Shown: positions 17,723-54,343, counted from the first letter of the stretch. The stretch is 64,000 nucleotides of DNA from Clostridium sp. (GCA_031275405.1 JAISOV010000016.1:23725-87724), one strand, 5' to 3'. Program-made: numbers and translations. Notes: generated by a model not told the origin, from the letters alone.

Positions 17723-19213
17723 TCATCCGCCTTTCTTCAGCTCTTCTATGATCCGCGTCACCACCTCGTCCGCCTGCAGCCCGTCCACATCAAGGACCAG
17801 ATCCGCCGTTTCCTCATAAAAGGCGACCCGCTGCTCCATCAGCGCCCGGATCTTCCGCAGCCTCGCAGGAGGGCGCTCCGAACACGGCTCCGCGCCCGAA
17901 AGCGCTTTTTCCGGGGAACCCTCCCCTTGCAGCAGAGGGCGCACGGTATCTGTCTTCAGCCGTTCATACACCGTCTCCGGTCTAAGCCGCAGATAGACCA
18001 CTGTCCCCAGTTCCCGCAGCAGCTTCCGGTTCCGCGCCCTGGCCGGAGTGCCGCCGCCCACGGAAAGGATCAGGCGGCTCCGCCATTGGAGCAGCTCCCG
18101 GAGCAGGTTCGTTTCCAGATCCCGGAAATAGTTTTCTCCTTCCCGCTCAAAAATCTCGCGGATACTCCTGCCCTCCCGTCTTTCGATCATTCTGTCCATG
18201 TCCTCCATCGTCCGGCGCAGGCCATAGGACAGCTGAACCCCTACCGTCGTTTTCCCGCTTCCCATAAAGCCGATCAGCACGATGTTCTTACGGCACTTCC
18301 TGGTTCTGCCCCGGCGTCTTGGCAGGAGGCTCTTTTTCTCTTCCTCCGACGCACTTATGGCTTTGAGCAGCTTCCCATAGGCCTCTTTCGCCAGCTCCTC
18401 CCCCACTGTCCGCCCTGTCCAGAGTTCGTAGGCGATGATCCCTTGGTACAGCAGCATTTTCATCCCGTTATAGGCTCTGCCGCCGTGCCGCTGAACCAGC
18501 TTCATGAAGCGCGTCCGGGGAGGGTTGAACACCAGGTCGTACCCGGTATGTATTTTTTCATAAAAATCGCCCTCCTCCACGACCGCTTTCCCCACGTCCG
18601 GATACATGCCCACGTCGGTGGCCTGCACCGCCAGGAAACGTTTCCCGCCGGGAAGCTGCCTGTATTCCCCAAGCTCCATAGGGTGTACCGCTTCGCGCCC
18701 GGTCAGGGCGTTCACCTCCCGCGCGACGGCGCAGGCCTTTGCCCTGGTACGGTTGAGCAGGAAGATGTGCTTCGCCCCCTGCCGGGCAAACAAAAGCGCC
18801 ACCGCCCTGGCCGCGCCTCCCGCGCCGAGGATCAGGATCTCTTCGCCCTTGATCTCCACTCCGTCCTGCTCCATCGCCCGGAGCAGACCGGGCAGATCCG
18901 TGTTATAGCCTTTGAAGCCCCCCTCCACGCGAACCAGGGTGTTCACCGCCCCGACGGCCTGCGCCAAAGGATCCAGCTCGGCTAGATAAGGAAGGACTTC
19001 TGTCTTATACGGTACCGTCACGTTGCAGCCCAGAAGGTTCAAGGCATAGGCGCCTTTCACCGCTTCCTCCAAGTGTCCGGCAGCCACGTGGAACGGCACA
19101 TAGACCAGATTCTCCTTCGTTTTTTCCGCAAGGAAACCGTGGATCACCGGCGACTGCGTATGTCCTACCGGATTCCCTATCAGCCCGCAGGTACGGGTAT
19201 ATCCGTTGATCAT
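17723..19213 (-). CDS. aroEK: bifunctional shikimate dehydrogenase / shikimate kinase
   Basis: A 496-residue fusion that would carry out two consecutive steps, 3-dehydroshikimate to shikimate to shikimate 3-phosphate. Residues 1-290 are AroE: GNPVGHTQSPVIH, the catalytic-Lys motif NVTVPYK, and the NADP loop LGAGGAARAV. A basic linker (PRRRGRTRKCRKN) leads to AroK at about 315-496: Walker A GFMGSGKTTVG, DMDRMIERREG, and VGGGTPARARN. The LID region after RPLL carries an insertion rich in Glu/Ser/Pro. The start is placed just before the tandem repeat at 19229. aroQ follows 115 bases downstream. Confidence 0.93.
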   Translation of the reverse strand: MINGYTRTCGLIGNPVGHTQSPVIHGFLAEKTKENLVYVPFHVAAGHLEEAVKGAYALNLLGCNVTVPYKTEVLPYLAELDPLAQAVGAVNTLVRVEGGFKGYNTDLPGLLRAMEQDGVEIKGEEILILGAGGAARAVALLFARQGAKHIFLLNRTRAKACAVAREVNALTGREAVHPMELGEYRQLPGGKRFLAVQATDVGMYPDVGKAVVEEGDFYEKIHTGYDLVFNPPRTRFMKLVQRHGGRAYNGMKMLLYQGIIAYELWTGRTVGEELAKEAYGKLLKAISASEEEKKSLLPRRRGRTRKCRKNIVLIGFMGSGKTTVGVQLSYGLRRTMEDMDRMIERREGRSIREIFEREGENYFRDLETNLLRELLQWRSRLILSVGGGTPARARNRKLLRELGTVVYLRLRPETVYERLKTDTVRPLLQGEGSPEKALSGAEPCSERPPARLRKIRALMEQRVAFYEETADLVLDVDGLQADEVVTRIIEELKKGG

Positions 19214-19476: not shown

Positions 19477-19702
19477 TTGACGATATTGTAGTGAACGAAA
19501 CAAGCGCGTTGCTATTACCGGGTGCGGATACATGGAACGACCCAAAACATGGCGCTATATAGGAGAAGTAACAATATCCGAGGAGATGGCAGCAAATGTA
19601 GTAATGACAAGGGTTCAAAGTGTAATATCTCAAAGATTGTAATCCGATGTATACTGGCGAAAGCGGTGATGAGCCGCAAATAAACAGTATATGGAGGATT
19701 CT
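19477..19702 (+). other. unassigned stretch with short open frames
   Basis: Two plus-strand frames are open without a good start: one reads RVAITGCGYMERPKTWRYIGEVTISEEM and stops near 19642, another reads NMALYRRSNNIRGDGSKC and stops near 19682. The first looks protein-like and may be a gene remnant just inside the 39-bp repeat. No family is recognised. Confidence 0.3.
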
Positions 19703-19855
19703 TTGAATGAAAAAACCAAAAAGTATCACAGCGTTCACGCCGTCATTGCCACTGGCAAAATACTGACTTTTTTAGATTATGACTATGAAATTTTGTATGT
19801 AGAAAATGGCAAAGGCGAGTTGCGCCGTCTTTATCTCCACCTCACTGAAAAATGA
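19703..19855 (+). CDS. small 50-residue protein with TTG start
   Basis: This is not in the ORF track because it begins with TTG. GGAGG lies 5 bases upstream. The product, LNEKTKKYHSVHAVIATGKILTFLDYDYEILYVENGKGELRR..., has normal composition. It precedes a strong hairpin at 19949. It may be a truncated gene rather than a native small protein; no family is recognised. Confidence 0.4.
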   Translation: MNEKTKKYHSVHAVIATGKILTFLDYDYEILYVENGKGELRRLYLHLTEK

Positions 19856-30447: not shown

Positions 30448-30460
30448 TTTTACCATCATT

Positions 30461-30526
30461 CTCCTTCCAAAATCTGGGGACTTTGTGCGCGGCACAAAGC
30501 TCCGGGTGAAAGAATGCAATTCTTTC
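30461..30526 (-). repeat. 66-bp double-hairpin repeat, copy 1
   Basis: On the minus strand: GAAAGAATTGCATTCTTTC (hairpin 1), CCCGGAG, CTTTGTGCCGCGCACAAAG (hairpin 2), then CCCCAGATTTTGGAAGGAG ending in a Shine-Dalgarno. It lies exactly between the ABC ATPase stop, which it touches, and the permease start, and so donates the permease ribosome binding site. Copies 2 and 3 are at 37425 and 54180. Confidence 0.8.
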
Positions 30527-36430: not shown

Positions 36431-37411
36431 TTACGTCTGCGCTTCCATAGGATACCTCATGCCCCACTGGCCGCGCAGCTCATCCATCCACTCCATCATC
36501 CGGATCGTTTCCGCGTGGGGCAGCTGCGCGCATTCCAGTTCTCCGTTTTCGATGGCCCGGACACAGGCTTCCACCTCGTACTCGTACCCGGTGATCTGCT
36601 TCGGCGCGGCATAGGTTTCCAGTAACTCCCGGTTCCGGCCGTAGACGTCGAGCCGTTCAAAATTGCTGATGTTCGCCACCTCCACATAGCCCTGATCCCC
36701 GTAGACCAGCCCCCTGCGGTCGCTGGAAAACCGGAAGGAACTGTTCAGCAGAGCCATTTTCCCATCCCGGTAACGCAGGGTGATGCTGTTCTGGGCGTCC
36801 ACTCCGGTCTCGGTCATCACGGCTTGGCCGCAGATGCTTTCTATCTGGCCTCCAAAAACCATCGCCGCAAAATTCAGCGGATAGATCCCCAAGTCCAGCA
36901 GCGCTCCCCCCGCAAGCTCCGGCCTGACATACCGCTCCCGGTCTCCCAGCAGATAGCACAGATTGGCGGTCAGCATATGGGGAACCCCGATCTTTCCTCC
37001 CGCGATGATGGCTTCCAGCGTCCTGCGCATAGGCATATACCGCGTCCAGACGGCTTCCGTCAGCAGAAGCCCCTTCGCCTCTGCCAGTGCCAGCACTTCC
37101 CTGGCCTGGGCGGCATTTACGGTAAACGCCTTTTCGCACAGGACATGTTTCCCGTTCTCCAGGCACAGCCTGATATGTGCAGCATGATGGGAGTGGGGCG
37201 TGGCGATATAGATCAGTTCCACCTCCGGATCCCGCACCATCTCTTCATAAGAGCCATACGCCTTACGAAAGCCCCACCTCCGCGCAAAAGCCTCGGCGCG
37301 GACATACTCTCTGGCGGCTATCCCGTACCGCTCCACCGTCCCCATCCTCCGGAGCGTATCCGCCATGACCTCCGCGATCGTTCCCGCTCCGATGATTCCT
37401 GCTTTGATCAT
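36431..37411 (-). CDS. Gfo/Idh/MocA-family NAD(P)-dependent oxidoreductase
   Basis: A 326-residue dehydrogenase acting on a sugar-like or diol substrate. The Rossmann motif IKAGIIGAGTIAEVMADTL starts at residue 2, and EKAFTVNAAQAREV carries the EKP-like lysine segment as EKA. The dimerisation domain ends IRMMEWMDELRGQWGMRYP. The ORF track start at 37483 lies inside the 66-bp repeat; the ATG at 37411 matches the family start. The repeat contributes GGAAGGAG, 13 bases upstream of this ATG. Confidence 0.87.
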   Translation of the reverse strand: MIKAGIIGAGTIAEVMADTLRRMGTVERYGIAAREYVRAEAFARRWGFRKAYGSYEEMVRDPEVELIYIATPHSHHAAHIRLCLENGKHVLCEKAFTVNAAQAREVLALAEAKGLLLTEAVWTRYMPMRRTLEAIIAGGKIGVPHMLTANLCYLLGDRERYVRPELAGGALLDLGIYPLNFAAMVFGGQIESICGQAVMTETGVDAQNSITLRYRDGKMALLNSSFRFSSDRRGLVYGDQGYVEVANISNFERLDVYGRNRELLETYAAPKQITGYEYEVEACVRAIENGELECAQLPHAETIRMMEWMDELRGQWGMRYPMEAQT

Positions 37412-37424
37412 GGGGAACACCATA

Positions 37425-37490
37425 CTCCTTCCAAAGTCTGGAAGCTTTGTGCGTAGCACAAAGCTCCGGTCAAAAGAACGCAATTCTTTC
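37425..37490 (-). repeat. 66-bp double-hairpin repeat, copy 2
   Basis: On the minus strand GAAAGAATTGCGTTCTTTT, CTTTGTGCTACGCACAAAG and AGACTTTGGAAGGAG. Compared with copy 1, several differences are compensatory or lie in loops. It stands directly upstream of the oxidoreductase gene. Confidence 0.8.
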
Positions 37491-37559
37491 CATCTTGCCC
37501 CATCTGCCGATACTTGCCTTTTTACGAAATCGTAAACTTCCGTGAAATATAGGATACCA

Positions 37560-38237
37560 TACTATAGAAAAGATGTCCAGAGGAAAGTTGGAGCTTGCAT
37601 GAGTGCCTTTCGGTATCTTTCGCTTTACCATTTTATTAGTTACCTCATTTGTACCCCTTTCGTATGAGCTGTAAGGGTGGCAGTAATATAGCTCTGTACA
37701 TTTTCCCTATCCTAATACGGAATTTCCCAGCTCTTCACAATATGCAAATTCACTGCCATTATCTGCCGTTATCGTTTGAAACACTTCCTTAAAATATTGT
37801 GCCTCTTTTTCTCTCTAACCTGTTCACGGCATCTACTTACCGCCTCTGCCGTATGCACTGGCAATTTAAAAAGAATTTCTGCCCTTGTTTTTCTCTCTGT
37901 CAGTACCAATAGGCTGTTTTTTAGATTTCCCACGCTTTCCCTCTACGGTATCCATTTCCCAGGTTCCAAACGCTTCTCTTGTTTCTATGTTTCTATTTCC
38001 GCCGGTCTTTTTTCTATGCTCTCGCCCGCCGCTGCCCGTGCCTGCTTTTTTACTTTGTTATATCTATGCTTTTCATTTTTCTTTACTGATAAATTCTTAT
38101 TCATTTAAGTGCAGGAATATAGCCTTGTCTATATAGCTGTAAAGAGTGGTTACGCAAATTGTAAGGCTAAACTCTCCCTCTCTTGCCTGTGTTTTCAATT
38201 CCCCCAGTACCGCAGCCGGGTTACAATCATTATTTAT
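37560..38237 (-). pseudogene. decayed IS30-family transposase
   Basis: Reading the minus strand across several frameshifts recovers an IS30 core: [12 protein letters not shown]...[14 protein letters not shown], then FGTWEMDTVEGKRGKSK, VLTERKTRAEILFKLPVHTAEAV, ITADNGSEFAYCEELG and YYCHPYSSYERGTNEVTNKMV. The D, D and E positions are all visible but in different frames, and the N-terminal HTH is gone. The right end is fused in frame to the rfbA fragment. The plus-strand ORFs here are shadows. Confidence 0.85.
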
Positions 38238-38483
38238 TTCAGCATAGCATAGATGAATGCCGAACTTCTCTCCATTTCCTAAAAGGTTTTGAAATCTTGG
38301 CAACTCATTTGGAGTAGAAATAATCAGTATATCCTGGATTCCCGCCAGCATAAGCGTACTTAGGGGATAATAAATCATAGGCTTATTATATACAGGTAGC
38401 AGTTGCTTACTTGTAGTGTGAGTTAATGGATATAGTCTAGTACCGATCCCTCCTGCCAGAATAATTCTCCTTATGACGCTCAC
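38238..38483 (-). pseudogene. rfbA: glucose-1-phosphate thymidylyltransferase, N-terminal fragment
   Basis: The first 82 residues ([53 protein letters not shown]) are the unmistakable N-terminus of RfbA, with the GGxGTRL nucleotide motif. After CYAE the frame switches to IS30 sequence and stops at 38097, so the sugar-binding and C-terminal parts are missing and the enzyme cannot work. The start overlaps the operon end, one base after the FkbH-like stop, suggesting rfbA was once co-transcribed with that operon. Confidence 0.85.
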
Positions 38484-38484
38484 C

Positions 38485-40056
38485 TCACTGGCTTTCTATT
38501 ATTTTTATCTTCCATTTGAATGCCGCAGATAAAGATGTTTTTACATCATAATTCTTTCCTGTAGACGAAAAGTAAAGTTTGATTATCTGATAATTATTAT
38601 GGATAAATAACAGCATTTCATTTTCAATTTTTCTTCCTAATGCGCGACACGATAAACAAAAAAGTGTTATCACATCTGACTCGATTTCAAAAGCACCTAC
38701 TAATCCTAAATCCGAAAAGCGATCTGAAACAGAAACAGAATATAATTTGATTCTATTGTTTTCACATCGTTTTTTTATATCAAAAACAGTATATCGCGTT
38801 CCGTTTGTGCATTTGCTTGTCCGTTGAGAAAGCTCCGAGATACGGTTATATTCAATCGGCAAAGCTTCATGAATATCTATTTTGATTTCAAGTGCGGTTA
38901 TATATTGGTCGTAATTTTTATATTGAGCCTTTAATGTTTCGCGAGATTGATTAGTTCGGTAGGTTTCGTTGCGTCTTTTAATATCCACTATATCAATATT
39001 GCTTTTAAGATTGAAACAAGATAATCCTTCATTGATTGAATCACGTTTATATAAAAGCGTTGTTACCTCCGGCAACATAGATTTTACGGCTTCGATCTCT
39101 ATGGGCGAATCGTCAACAAAAACCATGCTGTCAAGACTGATATTCAGCGTTTCAGCAATTCGCCTTATGTTATCGGGCTTATTGTCCCAATTTACTTGAA
39201 AACAAGCTATATGTTCCTCTTTTAAAATCATTTCGCTGTGTTTGTGGAACATAGTCATTACGTCAGGCAAATCATTTTTACTGCAAATGATAAGGATAAC
39301 ACCATGATAAAACATCGAAAGGACAAATCTTTGAAAATCTTGATAAGGCCGCCCGAACCCGCTCCCGCCGAGCTGGATGTTTTCTATGCCATCTTCGGAG
39401 AGAATGCCGCCCCAAAGGACGTTGTCGCAGTCAAGCACAAGACATTTCTTTGTAATCCCTTTTTCAATAAGATATTGCTTGTGTATTTCCTTAACGGCGG
39501 CTTCAACCAATGCTTTGGAATAGGGCGCGTTCCAACGATATTTATTTTTTAGGTCGTATGCGTTGGCAGCGCCAACTTCCGCAATTATATGCTTTAAATC
39601 AATAAAAACCACATTATCCCTTAATGCATCGCTTAATGCATTATTTATGTTATCGACAAGTGGATTATATGGATAGCCCATTACAACCGGAGAGTTTATG
39701 AAATAGTCCTCAAACAAAAACCATATTATATGGACATTTGAATACCCAGTTATGTCGGAGTAGAATTTTTTGCAAGCGGCAACGACTTCTTCAATGATTT
39801 GTTGGTCAGGAGCGGTTTGTGAATAGAGAAGATTGCAAGCGTTTAAATACGACGATTCTAAATTTAGCCAAACTATAATGACATCCGATTCCCCGATCTG
39901 TTTTCGATACACATCATCATTTTGTTCACCGTAAGGAATAGGGTATATTTTTATATTTTCACCGAAATAAGTTTTTATTAGCGTATTAAAGTGAGGATCA
40001 AAAATGATGTCTGATATTACACCAATATGTAATTCAGGAACTTCAAAATTATTCAT
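38485..40056 (-). CDS. FkbH-like HAD-IIIC family protein
   Basis: A 523-residue enzyme with the FkbH-like layout. An N-terminal SGNH/partner-like region spans about 1-195. The HAD-IIIC core has DxD at residues 209/211 ([13 protein letters not shown]), ICSKND, and VFVDDSPIE. The C-terminal acyltransferase-like domain runs from about 370 ([20 protein letters not shown]...). FkbH proteins take a glyceryl unit from 1,3-bisphosphoglycerate and load it on an ACP. The start codon shares ATGA with the ACP stop, and AAGGAG precedes it, so ACP and enzyme are coupled. Its real substrate is unknown. Confidence 0.85.
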
Positions 40057-40322
40057 TCAGTCGCTCCTTCCGTGTCTTTCTTTTCTAAGGCATCAAACAC
40101 AATGTTTGCCAGTTTGTTTAATGTATTCGATTGGGTTATTAATAAGCATTCGTCTGGATACTCAATCTCAAAAGTGGCCTCCAAGGCGACAACAATGCTG
40201 ATAAATGAAATCGAGTTCATGCCAAGAGCAACTAAATCATCGTCAGCTTGCTCAATTGTAATTTCCGCCTTTTCAACATTGGTATTTATAATATCCAATA
40301 TTTCACTTTTAATATTTCCCAT
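40053..40322 (-). CDS. acyl carrier protein
   Basis: An 89-residue carrier protein with the phosphopantetheine site LGMNSISFI (Ser37; Asn replaces the usual Asp before Ser). AGGTGG before the ATG at 40322 favours that start over the GTG at 40331. The four-base overlap with the FkbH-like gene marks it as the carrier for that enzyme. It is a stand-alone ACP, distinct from fatty-acid ACP by context. A phosphopantetheinyl transferase must come from elsewhere. Confidence 0.85.
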   Translation of the reverse strand: MGNIKSEILDIINTNVEKAEITIEQADDDLVALGMNSISFISIVVALEATFEIEYPDECLLITQSNTLNKLANIVFDALEKKDTEGATE

Positions 40323-40348
40323 ATTATCCACCTAAAAATGCCCTTCTA

Positions 40349-41335
40349 TTATATCTTTAAGGATTTACTTTCTTCAAGCATTAATTTCATTATATTTTCC
40401 TCTCGATTTGCCAAGATTTCTATACGTTCAGCAATTTTAATAAATTTGACTTCCGATGGAAGAAAACTATATTTAACCAAAAGAAGTGAAACAGAATACC
40501 ATTCTTTAATAATTCCATCAAGTTCATTATAACAATCTTTCCAGTTATGCTTTTCACAGAGATTTTTCAAAATCGCTCTACATGGAATAATGCCGGAGTA
40601 AGCAATATTGAAAGCAAGTTCTTTAAGATTTTCATTGATATCTTTTGTTGTAAATTTTTCTAGAATGTTCTTCAATACATCAATGACTAAATGCATATTG
40701 CTTTTACAAGCAATAAATATTTCTATATTTTTTTCTAAGTCATCCCGTAGGGCATCTGCCGTATATGTCCAATCGTTTTGTTTTATGCCCATATAGTCAA
40801 ATATGAAAACCCTATAAGGGCTGTCCTGAGTAAAAGCTGCGTTTTTCAAATCATTAAAAGACATTTCGCCCGCATATGATTTAGCTGGAAAAGTAGGAAT
40901 AAAATAATCAATGAATGATAAATTTTTCTGTTCGGAATCAATGCCATTGATAACCAAAGTATGGCTTCTATCTTTATTTGTATGATAAGTAGTATCGTGT
41001 TTTAAAGATCGGGAACTCACCTTTAAAATCACTGGATTTCCTTTGCCAATTTCTTCGTAAATAAAGGTTTGCAGATTCATATAGTCATTAAAATCAATAT
41101 AATGATTCTCGATACCATAGCTATCTAAAAAACTCGATACAATCTCATTTAACCTATGAGATATTGAAATGTCTTGTAATGAGGATATGTCATTAATGTT
41201 GGTTGTCATCCTCATCCCTTCGCTTTTGAGAAAAACATATTCCTCATCAATGGCACTATTAAAACACTTTGCTGCGTTAATAAACGCTGAATAGAAGCAG
41301 GCTACCCCTTGTGAAACTGGAATTTCAATGATCAT
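40349..41335 (-). CDS. BtrH-like (C39-fold) acyltransferase/peptidase-like protein
   Basis: A 328-residue protein resembling the BtrH N-terminal family. Cys13 (SQGVACFYSAFINA), His125 (DRSHTLVINGID) and Asp133 or Asp143 could form a papain-like triad. BtrH in butirosin synthesis moves an acyl group from an ACP to an aminoglycoside. The C-terminal ~130 residues are helical, without a known motif. AAGGG 8 bases before the ATG at 41335 favours it over 41359. It sits between the transporters and the ACP, so an ACP-to-acceptor transfer role is inferred. Confidence 0.6.
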   Translation of the reverse strand: MIIEIPVSQGVACFYSAFINAAKCFNSAIDEEYVFLKSEGMRMTTNINDISSLQDISISHRLNEIVSSFLDSYGIENHYIDFNDYMNLQTFIYEEIGKGNPVILKVSSRSLKHDTTYHTNKDRSHTLVINGIDSEQKNLSFIDYFIPTFPAKSYAGEMSFNDLKNAAFTQDSPYRVFIFDYMGIKQNDWTYTADALRDDLEKNIEIFIACKSNMHLVIDVLKNILEKFTTKDINENLKELAFNIAYSGIIPCRAILKNLCEKHNWKDCYNELDGIIKEWYSVSLLLVKYSFLPSEVKFIKIAERIEILANREENIMKLMLEESKSLKI

Positions 41336-41360
41336 AAACAACCCTTCCCGATTAAACATG

Positions 41361-43136
41361 TCAGATATACCACTTTGCTTGTGCTTGGTACATTCGAGCG
41401 TAAATGCCGTTTTGTCCCATCAAATCCGAGTGATTTCCGTCTTCGGCGATTCTGCCGTTATCGAAAACCAATATGCGGTCAACAATGCTTGTGACTCCTA
41501 AACGGTGAGAAATTAAAATAGTTGTCTTGTTCCCCGTCAAGTTTTTAAAATTTCGGTATATATTCGCTTCAGCAACAGGATCAAGGGCGGCTGTCGGCTC
41601 GTCAAGAATATATACGCATGCGTTTTTGCGAAACAATGCCCGCGTAACGGCTATTTTCTGCCATTGGCCGCCGGATAGGTTTTTCCCTTCCTCTGAAAAA
41701 AGGCCGATCATCTCATCCAGTCCTTCATCCTGTTCACTGATGACTTCATCGGCGCCCGTCTGACGCGCTATCTTTAACAATTCGTCATCTTCCATAGCGC
41801 GATCCGGATCGGAAAGAGCGATATTATTCCGCAAAGTATCCTGATATGTGCAGAAATTTTGAAAAATGACCGATAAGGAACGCCGAGCCTTGGCTAAGTC
41901 CTGTGTGATCTCATTTCCGTTAATTGTGGCGTTTCCACTTTGGGGTTTATATAGTCCGCATAAAAGGTTTACGAATGTGGATTTTCCACTGCCGTTTGCG
42001 CCTACAATGGCGATTTTTTCTCCCTGCTTAATACTGACATTCAGCTTATCAAGTGCCTTGTACTCACTGCCGGGATATACAAAATCTACATCTTTAAATT
42101 CGATTTCAGCTCTGGTATAAAATTCGCTGGAGTCGTTTATGATTTCTTTTTGCGTTCCCATTAAATCAAAAAAGTCTTCTATGTAACGCAAATCAGAAAA
42201 TATGCTAACCGCATTTACAAGCAATGTTGTCGTAATGCCTTGTAATTGACCTGCCGCCGAAACAACAAGCATAAATGTACCAAGACCCTTTTCGGGGTTA
42301 TTGTATATCTCCAGAGCAGTCAATAATACAACTGCAAGATATACTCCGTTTCGTAAAAGATCTGCAATCCCGTTATATATCACATGCTTTCGGGTCACTT
42401 TATTCTTCTTTTTTACATAATTACCGATGAGAGAACGCCATTTGGCCTTTAGGTATGGATATAACCCGAAATACCGTATCTCCTTCATCGAATCATTCGT
42501 CCTGCATTTGTCAGAATAATGCAGCGTCAGCCGGCCTTCTTTCATCCACTTAGTCCGTGAACGATAGGTCTCATCCTTTTGTATCATTGACAGAATTACC
42601 GCCGGAATACAGGTAACAATCAACAATACCGTGATCCACGGATTTACGACAGAAATGATAAATGTTACACTGATGAAAGAAATGATATTGTAAATCCACC
42701 CGAATATAATGGATATGCTCCCCGCCGCTTTCGGGGCGGCATGCCCTCTGACAAAATCCATTTTCTCGCGGAAATCGCCGTGATTTTCTATATATTCAAG
42801 CGGTATCTCCGTTAATAGTCGCATCATGCTTTCTTTGAGATATCTGTTTATTCTTGCCGAGTCTTCATTTGCGCAACAATTCTGTACAAAACCAAATAAT
42901 AATTGGACAATATAAAGCAGAGCCAAAAACGCGAATGACAGCATGACCGTTTTTAAAATGTCAGGATTCCCGAATAAAGCACTCGCTTTATCTGTAAAAT
43001 CCGCAAGACGAAGTGACATCAGCATCGGCAAGAAAGCCGCTGCGAATCCAAGTATACTTACTATGAAAGAAATCGGACTTTTCAGCTTTACGCTGAGCGA
43101 TATAGCGCGAAAGAACGCTTTGATTTTACGCGTCAC
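41361..43136 (-). CDS. ABC exporter half-transporter (TMD-NBD), second subunit
   Basis: A 591-residue exporter with six N-terminal membrane helices and a C-terminal ATPase: Walker A GANGSGKST, signature LSGGQWQKIAVTRA, Walker B CVYILDEPTAALDP and H-loop LISHRLG. The likely start is the GTG at 43136 (VTRKIKAFFRAI), six bases after GGAGG, rather than 43151. It overlaps the first exporter by 11 bases. No N-terminal C39 peptidase domain is fused, so cleavage of a leader, if any, would need another protein. Confidence 0.9.
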   Translation of the reverse strand: MTRKIKAFFRAISLSVKLKSPISFIVSILGFAAAFLPMLMSLRLADFTDKASALFGNPDILKTVMLSFAFLALLYIVQLLFGFVQNCCANEDSARINRYLKESMMRLLTEIPLEYIENHGDFREKMDFVRGHAAPKAAGSISIIFGWIYNIISFISVTFIISVVNPWITVLLIVTCIPAVILSMIQKDETYRSRTKWMKEGRLTLHYSDKCRTNDSMKEIRYFGLYPYLKAKWRSLIGNYVKKKNKVTRKHVIYNGIADLLRNGVYLAVVLLTALEIYNNPEKGLGTFMLVVSAAGQLQGITTTLLVNAVSIFSDLRYIEDFFDLMGTQKEIINDSSEFYTRAEIEFKDVDFVYPGSEYKALDKLNVSIKQGEKIAIVGANGSGKSTFVNLLCGLYKPQSGNATINGNEITQDLAKARRSLSVIFQNFCTYQDTLRNNIALSDPDRAMEDDELLKIARQTGADEVISEQDEGLDEMIGLFSEEGKNLSGGQWQKIAVTRALFRKNACVYILDEPTAALDPVAEANIYRNFKNLTGNKTTILISHRLGVTSIVDRILVFDNGRIAEDGNHSDLMGQNGIYARMYQAQAKWYI

Positions 43137-44961
43137 AAACCACCTCCGCATCTTTTTTCACATACCACTGAGCCTGTTCATTAAAAAATTTTGCATATAA
43201 TCCGTTTTTTTCCATCAGTTCTTCATGTGATCCGATTTCAGCGACTTTTCCGCCGTCAAGGAGGATGATTTTATCCGCCAGACGTGCGAATCCGACCCGG
43301 TGGCTTATCAGGATCGAAGTGCAGTCTCCAGCCTTTTCTTTGATATTCATAAATTGCTCAAGTTCGGATATAGGATCGAGCATGGAAGCGGGTTCGTCGA
43401 AAATCAATATCTCCTTGTCGCTCATGTGTGCGCGGGAAATAGCTAATTTCTGTTTTTCGCCGCCGGAAAAGTCGGCTCCCGTTTCTTCTATCCATCTATA
43501 TACATAAGTATCGCTTTCTTTCGGTAAAGCGGAGATGAATTGAGAGGAACCGCCTTTTTCCATCGCCTTATTTATCTTTTCTTTGTTGTCAACATTTTCA
43601 ATATCTCCGAAACCAATATTTTCCCATATAGGCAGGTGAAACAAATAATAGTCCTGGAAAAAAGCCCCAATGTGGTTTTTTAAGAACCCATCTTCTAACT
43701 GGTTATAATTCGTGCCGTTATAAAAAAGTTCACCCGAACGCGGTTTGTATAACTGCAGTATCAGCTTTACAAGTGTAGACTTCCCGCTTCCGTTCATTCC
43801 GACAAGGGCAATCGTTTCCCCCTTACTGATTGTTAAAGAAACATCATCTAAGGTAGGTTTATTGTCATTGTATGAATAGGATAAATTTTTTACCTCAAAT
43901 ACGGTTTCATTATTTTTTGTATTTTTATTTGGTTCAGCGGTGGCATCCTCTTTCTTTTTTCCCATTTTATGCAACCCGAATATGCGGTATTGTCTTTCAA
44001 GCGCGAATAACCCATGGTCAAGATATAGCATTGTGCTTGCAATACCCGGCATAGATCCATGCAGGGTCATACACAAGGAATATATCGTCAGCAACACAGC
44101 CGCGGTCATACTTCCGTTAGCCACGCTGGACAAAGAATATATCAGCATTGCAAAAAGAAATATATAAAATCCAAAACCGCTTATAAAAGAGCGAAGCTGC
44201 GCGGCAAAGCTGTTTTTTATTCCATGCTTATATAATTCCGCGTATATTTCTTTCCAATCATCTATTATTTTATCTTTTGTCCCGAATACCCGTATTTCTT
44301 TCGCATATTCTGCCGAATAAGGCATTCCTTCGTAATGTGCCGAAAGGCGTTCCTGATCTCTTATCCCTTGATCGACTCGTCTCCGTTTTTCTATATATTT
44401 AAGATTCATCCATATAACGCCGATAATATATACCATTGAAAAAATCAAAATAAATTCAGATAAAGTAAATGCTACAATGAGCAGGGAAAACAATCCTACA
44501 AATTTCCCCAATAAGGAACAGACTCCGCTTATAAAATCAGTCAGAGAGCCTTCGCGCATCACACAGGCGTGATATTCGTCATTGGTATCTTTTTTTAAAA
44601 GTTCTTCCATAGAAAAACTTTGTACACTGTCCATCAGGACTTCTTCCATTCCGAAATAATACGAATCATACATAATGGAATAGATGAGTTCCATATTAAG
44701 ACGGTTAGACAGGCCTATGAGCGTAGTTATTATTCCAAAAACAAAGATGGTCGGCAAAAGATCGTTAAAACTGCCGTTCCCGGTCAAGATGAATCCATCC
44801 AACAAAGAAATTATTTGTTTGTTGTATGAAAGTGCCGTGGCGGGAAGGACAGATACGATGGATATTAAGAAAAACCATACTACTAATAATACTTTATTGA
44901 ATCTCCACGCAAGCGAAAATGCCCAGCCCATAGCCTTTATTCTCTGTTTTATATGAATCAC
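43126..44961 (-). CDS. ABC exporter half-transporter (TMD-NBD), first subunit
   Basis: A 611-residue exporter with six membrane helices, a linker rich in Lys/Glu/Asn (KKKEDATAEPNKNTKNNE), Walker A GMNGSGKST, signature FSGGEKQKLAISRA, Walker B ILIFDEPASMLDP and H-loop LISHRVG. With the next gene it probably forms a heterodimer. The annotated start is a GTG with only a nearby GAGGG, so the exact start is uncertain. It is the first complete gene of the leftward operon. Confidence 0.88.
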   Translation of the reverse strand: MIHIKQRIKAMGWAFSLAWRFNKVLLVVWFFLISIVSVLPATALSYNKQIISLLDGFILTGNGSFNDLLPTIFVFGIITTLIGLSNRLNMELIYSIMYDSYYFGMEEVLMDSVQSFSMEELLKKDTNDEYHACVMREGSLTDFISGVCSLLGKFVGLFSLLIVAFTLSEFILIFSMVYIIGVIWMNLKYIEKRRRVDQGIRDQERLSAHYEGMPYSAEYAKEIRVFGTKDKIIDDWKEIYAELYKHGIKNSFAAQLRSFISGFGFYIFLFAMLIYSLSSVANGSMTAAVLLTIYSLCMTLHGSMPGIASTMLYLDHGLFALERQYRIFGLHKMGKKKEDATAEPNKNTKNNETVFEVKNLSYSYNDNKPTLDDVSLTISKGETIALVGMNGSGKSTLVKLILQLYKPRSGELFYNGTNYNQLEDGFLKNHIGAFFQDYYLFHLPIWENIGFGDIENVDNKEKINKAMEKGGSSQFISALPKESDTYVYRWIEETGADFSGGEKQKLAISRAHMSDKEILIFDEPASMLDPISELEQFMNIKEKAGDCTSILISHRVGFARLADKIILLDGGKVAEIGSHEELMEKNGLYAKFFNEQAQWYVKKDAEVVCDA

Positions 44962-45032
44962 CCCTCATTATGTAAGGCAATCGCATTGCTTATTTTTCCT
45001 TACGCATTCCACTAAACTGTCAAAATTATAAA

Positions 45033-45221
45033 CTATTTCACCTTTGACATCATCTTCTTTAAGACCTCGACCTTCTGGCCATGGTGCGGTTCCATCAGCC
45101 GCCGTTTCGGGACGAGCAGTTCATAATCCCCTGAATATTCAATTGCGCGGAGAAAGGAACGAATCGTGCCGCAGACCTCATCCTCTCTGCCTGTCATCAC
45201 GAACAAGGCAAACCAGTCCAT
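45033..45221 (-). pseudogene. truncated LoaP/NusG-like antiterminator
   Basis: MDWFALFVMTGREDEVCGTIRSFL ... LLVPKRRLMEPHHGQKVEVLKKM is the N-terminal NGN half of a LoaP/NusG-paralogue. These specialised factors prevent early termination in long biosynthetic operons. GGGAGG lies six bases before the ATG. The frame ends after 62 residues (KKMMSKVK), whereas the family is about 170, and no KOW domain follows. It is positioned exactly where such regulators sit, upstream of the operon. Either a relic or an unusually short protein; relic is more likely. Confidence 0.75.
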
Positions 45222-54098: not shown

Positions 54099-54179
54099 TC
54101 TGCACCCCTTGTCCCGCCTTGGCGGACATCCGCTTCCTTATTTGGAAAGCACTCCGCTTTCCAGATTTTTAGAACCTTG

Positions 54180-54245
54180 CTCCTTCCAAAGTCTGGAGAC
54201 TTTGTGCGTGGCACAAAGCTCCGGTTGAAAGAATACAATGCTTTC
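54180..54245 (-). repeat. 66-bp double-hairpin repeat, copy 3
   Basis: On the minus strand GAAAGCATTGTATTCTTTC, CTTTGTGCCACGCACAAAG and AGACTTTGGAAGGAG. Here the Shine-Dalgarno-like end is about 80 bases from the PPIase start, so it is not the ribosome binding site of that gene. Confidence 0.8.
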
Positions 54246-54343
54246 CACCTTGTCCTCTCAGAAATTTTGCCCCATCTCCCCGCTCTGCCTGATCAAAGGC
54301 TTTTCTCGGGCAGCCTTTCCTCCCTTCGGGCGGCTGCGGCTTT

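Follow-up and report, generated by a model that had tools for sequence, protein, structure and literature searches.

Can two ABC exporter halves, a BtrH/C39-like protein, an acyl carrier protein (ACP) and an FkbH-like enzyme make up a small-molecule pathway of their own, and if not, what does such a gene set do? The question is raised by positions 38485-45221 of the window (the whole 64,000-nucleotide stretch of Clostridium sp. DNA that was analysed), for which an earlier note had proposed a compact operon and a possible small-molecule pathway.

A five-gene operon eroded at both ends

The minus strand encodes all five ORFs, ordered ABC1-ABC2-BtrH/C39-like-ACP-FkbH, with neighbours overlapping or abutting and ATGA as the ACP/FkbH junction, which bears out the leftward, overlapping arrangement described before (Table 1). 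The start at 41335 for the BtrH/C39-like gene reproduces the residue numbering of the earlier note. The five genes also stand as the content of the proposed interval; its end at 45221, however, falls on the start codon of a truncated loaP, a gene that the note had left unnamed, as it had the rmlA stub after fkbH and the transposase debris cutting rmlA. The family assignments were recovered by HMM search, in which FkbH clearly exceeded the curated cut-off (NCBIfam TIGR01686, 233.3 bits vs 146.65), the ACP and both ABC halves were clear, and the BtrH-like protein came out near the BtrH_N cut-off.

Table 1. Features of the operon and its borders (window positions) and of related loci (positions with a locus prefix).
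Feature	Position	Strand	Evidence or content
loaP stub, first 62 codons of a NusG-paralogue antiterminator	45033..45221	-	NF033641 antiterm_LoaP E 4.8e-8, profile 1-52 of 166
ABC exporter half 1 (permease + ATPase), ABC1	43126..44961	-	PF00005 102.5 bits
ABC exporter half 2, ABC2	41361..43151	-	likely start GTG 43136; PF00005 102.8 bits
BtrH/C39-like papain-fold protein	40349..41359	-	likely start ATG 41335; predicted ACP-dependent acyltransferase
Acyl carrier protein, GMNS attachment site	40053..40331	-	likely start ATG 40322; PF00550 E 4.5e-9
FkbH-family acyl-ACP loading enzyme (predicted)	38485..40056	-	SGNH-like, HAD-IIIC and C-terminal domains; divergent clade
rmlA 5' stub (glucose-1-phosphate thymidylyltransferase)	38097..38483	-	cut after ~80 codons; TIGR01207 129.7 bits, profile positions 2-80 of 286
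Transposase debris (presumably IS30-like), frameshifted, ending rmlA	37500..38096	-	three frames read; motifs TADNGSEF, YSSYERGTNE
Sister cassette (L091)	G000:C42:46000-60420		exporter pair, BtrH-like, aspartate decarboxylase, AMP-ligase-ACP, ACP, NTP_transf_5, radical SAM; integrase adjoins
Locus of the second same-clade FkbH (L046)	G000:C50:70000-89999		AMP-ligase, aminotransferase, argininosuccinate-synthase-like gene, ABC-2 transporters, ACP
BtrH-like proteins with Trp for Cys	L012:12528-13601, L015:18783-19946, L060:13967-15685, L064:484-1617

The operon is a fragment, a foreign island that has been eroded on either side. Its GC content is 31-42 %, as compared to ~52-55 % in the remainder of the window. 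On one side, no intact loaP was found beside the operon, just the 62-codon stub, whose match stays under the NF033641 cut-off because the gene is truncated, and the upstream region gave no signal of a leader RNA fold (z -0.61). On the other side, rmlA begins right where fkbH ends and is itself broken off by debris that is presumably IS30-like. Searches of plasmid DNA and proteins with the operon and its BtrH returned no match. As a separate observation, an interspersed repeat of ~75 bases (82-86 % between copies) occurs at 37401-37500, 54174-54252 and 30454-30526 of the window and at L046:16184-16256, and one of its copies adjoins the IS30-like debris.

A complete compact pathway is accordingly not what the window holds: both ends are truncated, the five-gene set is not conserved as such, and relatives belong to larger clusters that also contain genes for peptide precursors, maturases, ligases or sugars. 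What does survive, by virtue of a recurring neighbourhood (see below), is the acyl-transfer-and-export logic of FkbH, ACP and BtrH, and we regard the locus as probably a horizontally acquired, end-truncated cassette for FkbH-ACP-BtrH acyl transfer plus export. With both flanks truncated, this cassette may be inactive. It may even be a dead relic that has lost both ends and its regulator, and whose remaining genes are unexpressed or no longer selected; the loaP and rmlA stubs and the IS30-like debris on the two sides would fit such a fate, whereas five full-length ORFs with overlapping starts and intact motifs argue against it and render it rather unlikely.

A divergent FkbH clade in ribosomal-peptide neighbourhoods

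Among 85,462 species genomes scanned, the window FkbH had four close relatives (64-68 % identical), the MAGs of which are assigned to Chloroflexota, Bacillota, and Bacteroidota, although misbinning of MAG contigs is possible. Further clade members at 43-59 % identity came from genome searches, including a second one in the window's own genome, the locus of which (L046) also has a full-length LoaP-like (NusG paralogue) gene, while every other FkbH found scored at most about half as high. In a maximum-likelihood tree the clade is monophyletic and set apart from 23 other FkbHs with 100/100 support, and the window protein groups with L012-L015, from MAGs placed in three phyla, in a 99/95 crown. 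No relative was found in viral contigs searched with the clade profile.

Whether the genes of the operon are only coincidentally adjacent was addressed by comparing the neighbourhoods of ten clade loci with those of 23 control FkbH loci. An ACP gene lies directly upstream of FkbH in eight of the ten clade loci, and a BtrH-like gene within ~12 kb in seven (window, L012, L015, L047, L058, L060, L062/63); NTP_transf_5, PqqD, and HprK-like genes are present in 7/10, 5/10, and 5/10, respectively, with the restriction that these same clade loci had served to build the profiles, which makes positives there partly a matter of construction. BtrH, NTP_transf_5, PqqD, and HprK were each found in 0/23 control loci (for BtrH, Fisher p about 3e-5), and the BtrH profile still found a member on which it had not been trained, at C42 of the window's genome. 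The adjacency is thus not a matter of chance, even if the same five genes do not recur as a conserved unit. The order ABC-BtrH-FkbH recurs in the Lachnospiraceae-type genome G542. A BtrH-like fragment at L014 did not give a significant match and was left out of the counts, and the profile lends no support to a 281-aa protein of L058 that had been suspected as a BtrH.

Many of these relatives carry the hallmarks of ribosomal-peptide (RiPP) clusters. The L013 locus is of the lasso type. Next to a precursor it encodes PqqD and a B2 protein that passes its cut-off (B1 and C are sub-cut-off matches), together with an HprK-like kinase and an asparagine-synthase-like protein; NTP_transf_5, ACP, and FkbH genes are present as well. 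Its precursor (1994-2152) comprises 52 aa with the leader YCKPQLIEYGNLFDTT, and residue nine of the core is Asp if the core starts at the first Ala. In L058, YcaO, radical SAM, PqqD, HprK-like, and S26-like genes are accompanied by a 69-aa candidate precursor, and L062 combines a 44-aa candidate with a holo-ACP synthase gene. L047 encodes two candidates (18455-18625 and 19582-19770), whose leader motif is YDKPIL and whose C-terminal parts are rich in Val/Asn, next to two BtrH-like genes and several AMP-ligases. A Y-x-K-P leader motif is common to the candidates of L013, L047 (both), L058, and L062. The window holds no acceptor gene or maturase: neither a lasso precursor nor B1/B2 or C genes were found nearby, and a Y-x-K-P precursor, PqqD, radical SAM, and HprK are all lacking near the operon.

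As same-clade FkbH-ACP pairs among the relatives lie mostly in RiPP clusters, the likeliest acceptor in general would be a peptide itself or else a phosphate or sugar group carried by it. The acceptor genes of the window's genome itself are missing or cut off, and the two pointers to the acceptor diverge, the relatives favouring a ribosomal peptide and the rmlA stub a sugar. The operon may conceivably once have run into dTDP-sugar genes, with rmlA as the first, and acylated a nucleotide sugar or surface glycan. Besides the rmlA-fkbH junction, GT9-like and heptose-type genes after FkbH in L015, a divergent BtrH homologue adjoining a glycosyltransferase in L002, and the MBOAT acyltransferases that accompany ordinary Lachnospiraceae-type FkbHs in 12/23 control loci (as expected for surface-polymer acylation) point in this direction. 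However, MBOAT genes occur in 0/10 clade loci, relatives without sugar genes are of the RiPP type, and the junction may stem from recombination, so that we consider a sugar acceptor somewhat improbable. For the clade as a whole we tentatively propose, as one possibility, that NKCT-NG-type FkbHs (see below) together with ACP and BtrH-like or NTP_transf_5 partners constitute an undescribed RiPP modification in which a C3 hydroxy acid would be attached with the help of a carrier protein (as in glycerylation or a similar reaction), and which would have been spread by horizontal transfer and would employ swappable loaders, for example, for beta-alanyl. In the open-access literature, no paper tying FkbH to lasso peptides or RiPPs was found beyond unrelated co-mentions.

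Proposed acyl loading, transfer and exchange of parts

From families, motifs, gene order, clade membership, gene association, and truncation, all of which are read from the sequence, we infer the following chemistry together with its acyl unit and acceptor. FkbH would charge the holo-ACP with an activated C3 acid, most probably a glyceryl unit derived from 1,3-bisphosphoglycerate; the BtrH-like papain-fold protein would accept the acyl group on Cys13 and pass it to an amine or hydroxyl of the acceptor; and the two ABC halves would form one exporter for the product. The conversion of 1,3-bisphosphoglycerate to glyceryl-ACP by FkbH has been described (PMC7489565), and the window enzyme keeps the HAD motifs D209/D211, S259, K293, and D315/D316 as well as the invariant C-terminal C470. 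A C-terminal motif, NKCT-NG (one residue deleted), is found in all ten clade members, with NQFN in its place in all other FkbHs compared, some of which come from a polyketide synthase or from operons that contain FabH-like genes; NQFN is a shared feature seen in this comparison and not a published criterion. The residues concerned are K415-C416-T417-N418-G419, again in 10/10 members, and the clade signature can be written as Q-R-[TA]-[NS]-K-C-T-N-G.

As NKCT-NG replaces NQFN, the acyl unit may not be glyceryl. That the clade reads a different unit through the changed motif (e.g., a phosphorylated or nitrogen-bearing C3 acid) is compatible with the occurrence of KCTNG throughout the clade and of NQFN-type motifs elsewhere, including operons whose FabH-like and ACP genes are characteristic of glycerate use. 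We nevertheless deem it unlikely, given that the HAD catalytic residues and C470 are unchanged and that the motif could serve ACP recognition instead.

The putative transferase is the most divergent component. BtrH has been characterised as an ACP:aminoglycoside acyltransferase (PMC10318531), and the window protein reaches 28.3 bits against PF14399 (BtrH_N; cut-off 29.7) and 30.6 bits in the genome search. Its family profile aligns over the full length with the canonical BtrH encoded elsewhere in the same genome (109 bits), with an hhalign E of 1e-7. Searches with the protein across 391 genomes of the class and 397 of the family retrieved distant matches only, which makes it an orphan at the sequence level; BtrH-like members are just 11-20 % identical to it, and a structure prediction from four sequences reached a mean pLDDT of 45, too low for the model to be of use. 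The Cys13/His125/Asp set highlighted in the earlier note is borne out as conserved positions among 18 homologues: Cys13, His125, and Asp143 are all present in the window protein and are kept in 14/18, 18/18, and 15/18, respectively. The lack of a conserved Cys/His pair in homologues, on which that note would have given up the proposal, is thus not what was found. In four BtrH-like proteins, all from FkbH loci, Trp replaces Cys, so that a Cys acyltransferase function cannot hold for all members. In the window, as in loci of relatives, the BtrH-like gene is encoded with an ACP and its loader. A role as a C39-like peptidase that trims a peptide before export, as hinted at by the Peptidase_C39_2 match (20.4 bits vs cut-off 24; E 8e-4) and by the adjoining ABC exporter, next to which C39 peptidases are found in peptide exporters, is very improbable in view of the full-length match to canonical BtrH, the co-occurrence of homologues with ACP loaders, and the lack of a precursor peptide in the window.

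The acyl-transfer reading gains from a sister cassette at C42 of the window's genome. It contains a further copy of the exporter pair (65 % identity for half 1 and 67 % for half 2); a search of 20 relatives found no such pair beyond the two copies of the window's genome. The gene after the C42 pair is BtrH-like and has no BLASTP similarity to that of the window, yet it matches the profile (E 4.7e-13); it is followed by an aspartate 1-decarboxylase (PF02261, 145.9 bits) and an AMP-ligase-ACP. This is probably a beta-alanyl transfer system. Its combination of the same exporter pair with a divergent BtrH, a decarboxylase, and an AMP-ligase-ACP indicates swappable loaders and points to exporter, transferase, and loader as interchangeable modules of acyl-loading cassettes, with beta-alanyl as the unit to be expected where the FkbH loader would be replaced.

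Relation to known systems

In butirosin biosynthesis, the side chain is handled by a module of the ACP BtrI, the ligase BtrJ, the decarboxylase BtrK, and the acyltransferase BtrH. The window resembles this module in that an acyl unit on a dedicated ACP would be moved to an acceptor by a BtrH-type protein, and the C42 cassette likewise has a decarboxylase, ligase, and ACP. Unlike in butirosin, the loader in the window is an FkbH, the acyl unit is probably a C3 hydroxy acid, an exporter pair is included, and the acceptor is, as far as visible, not an aminoglycoside.

The glycerate-utilisation operons of tetronates and the methoxymalonyl-ACP operons similarly employ FkbH and a stand-alone ACP to form acyl-ACP from 1,3-bisphosphoglycerate (PMC7489565). 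They differ in that the window comes without a FabH-like gene, an E2-like acyltransferase, a dehydrogenase, or a polyketide synthase, and in that its FkbH belongs to the divergent NKCT-NG clade. A FabH-like ligase and an E2-like acyltransferase were not found next to the window FkbH-ACP pair, for comparison with L105. The clusters of phosphorylated or glycosylated lasso peptides (paeninodin, pseudomycoidin) share with L013 and other relatives an HprK-like kinase, a nucleotidyltransferase-type gene, and PqqD, there found with the clade FkbH-ACP. PsmK/PsmN are described in a review of lasso-peptide tailoring, which makes no mention of an ACP; the window, in turn, lacks any lasso genes.

Should the peptide reading prove true, glycolytic 1,3-bisphosphoglycerate would decorate peptides through a carrier protein, and polyketide-type acyl loading would be linked with the maturation of ribosomal peptides. 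A loader that can be swapped points to a natural toolkit with which different small acids could be placed on peptides or sugars. The window's own value is lower because it is a fragment; the one-line clade signature, in turn, allows such clusters to be mined directly. The same genome also holds a sactipeptide-like cluster at G000:C54:800-6400 (L090), in which PqqD, radical SAM, ABC, and M16-peptidase genes lie together.
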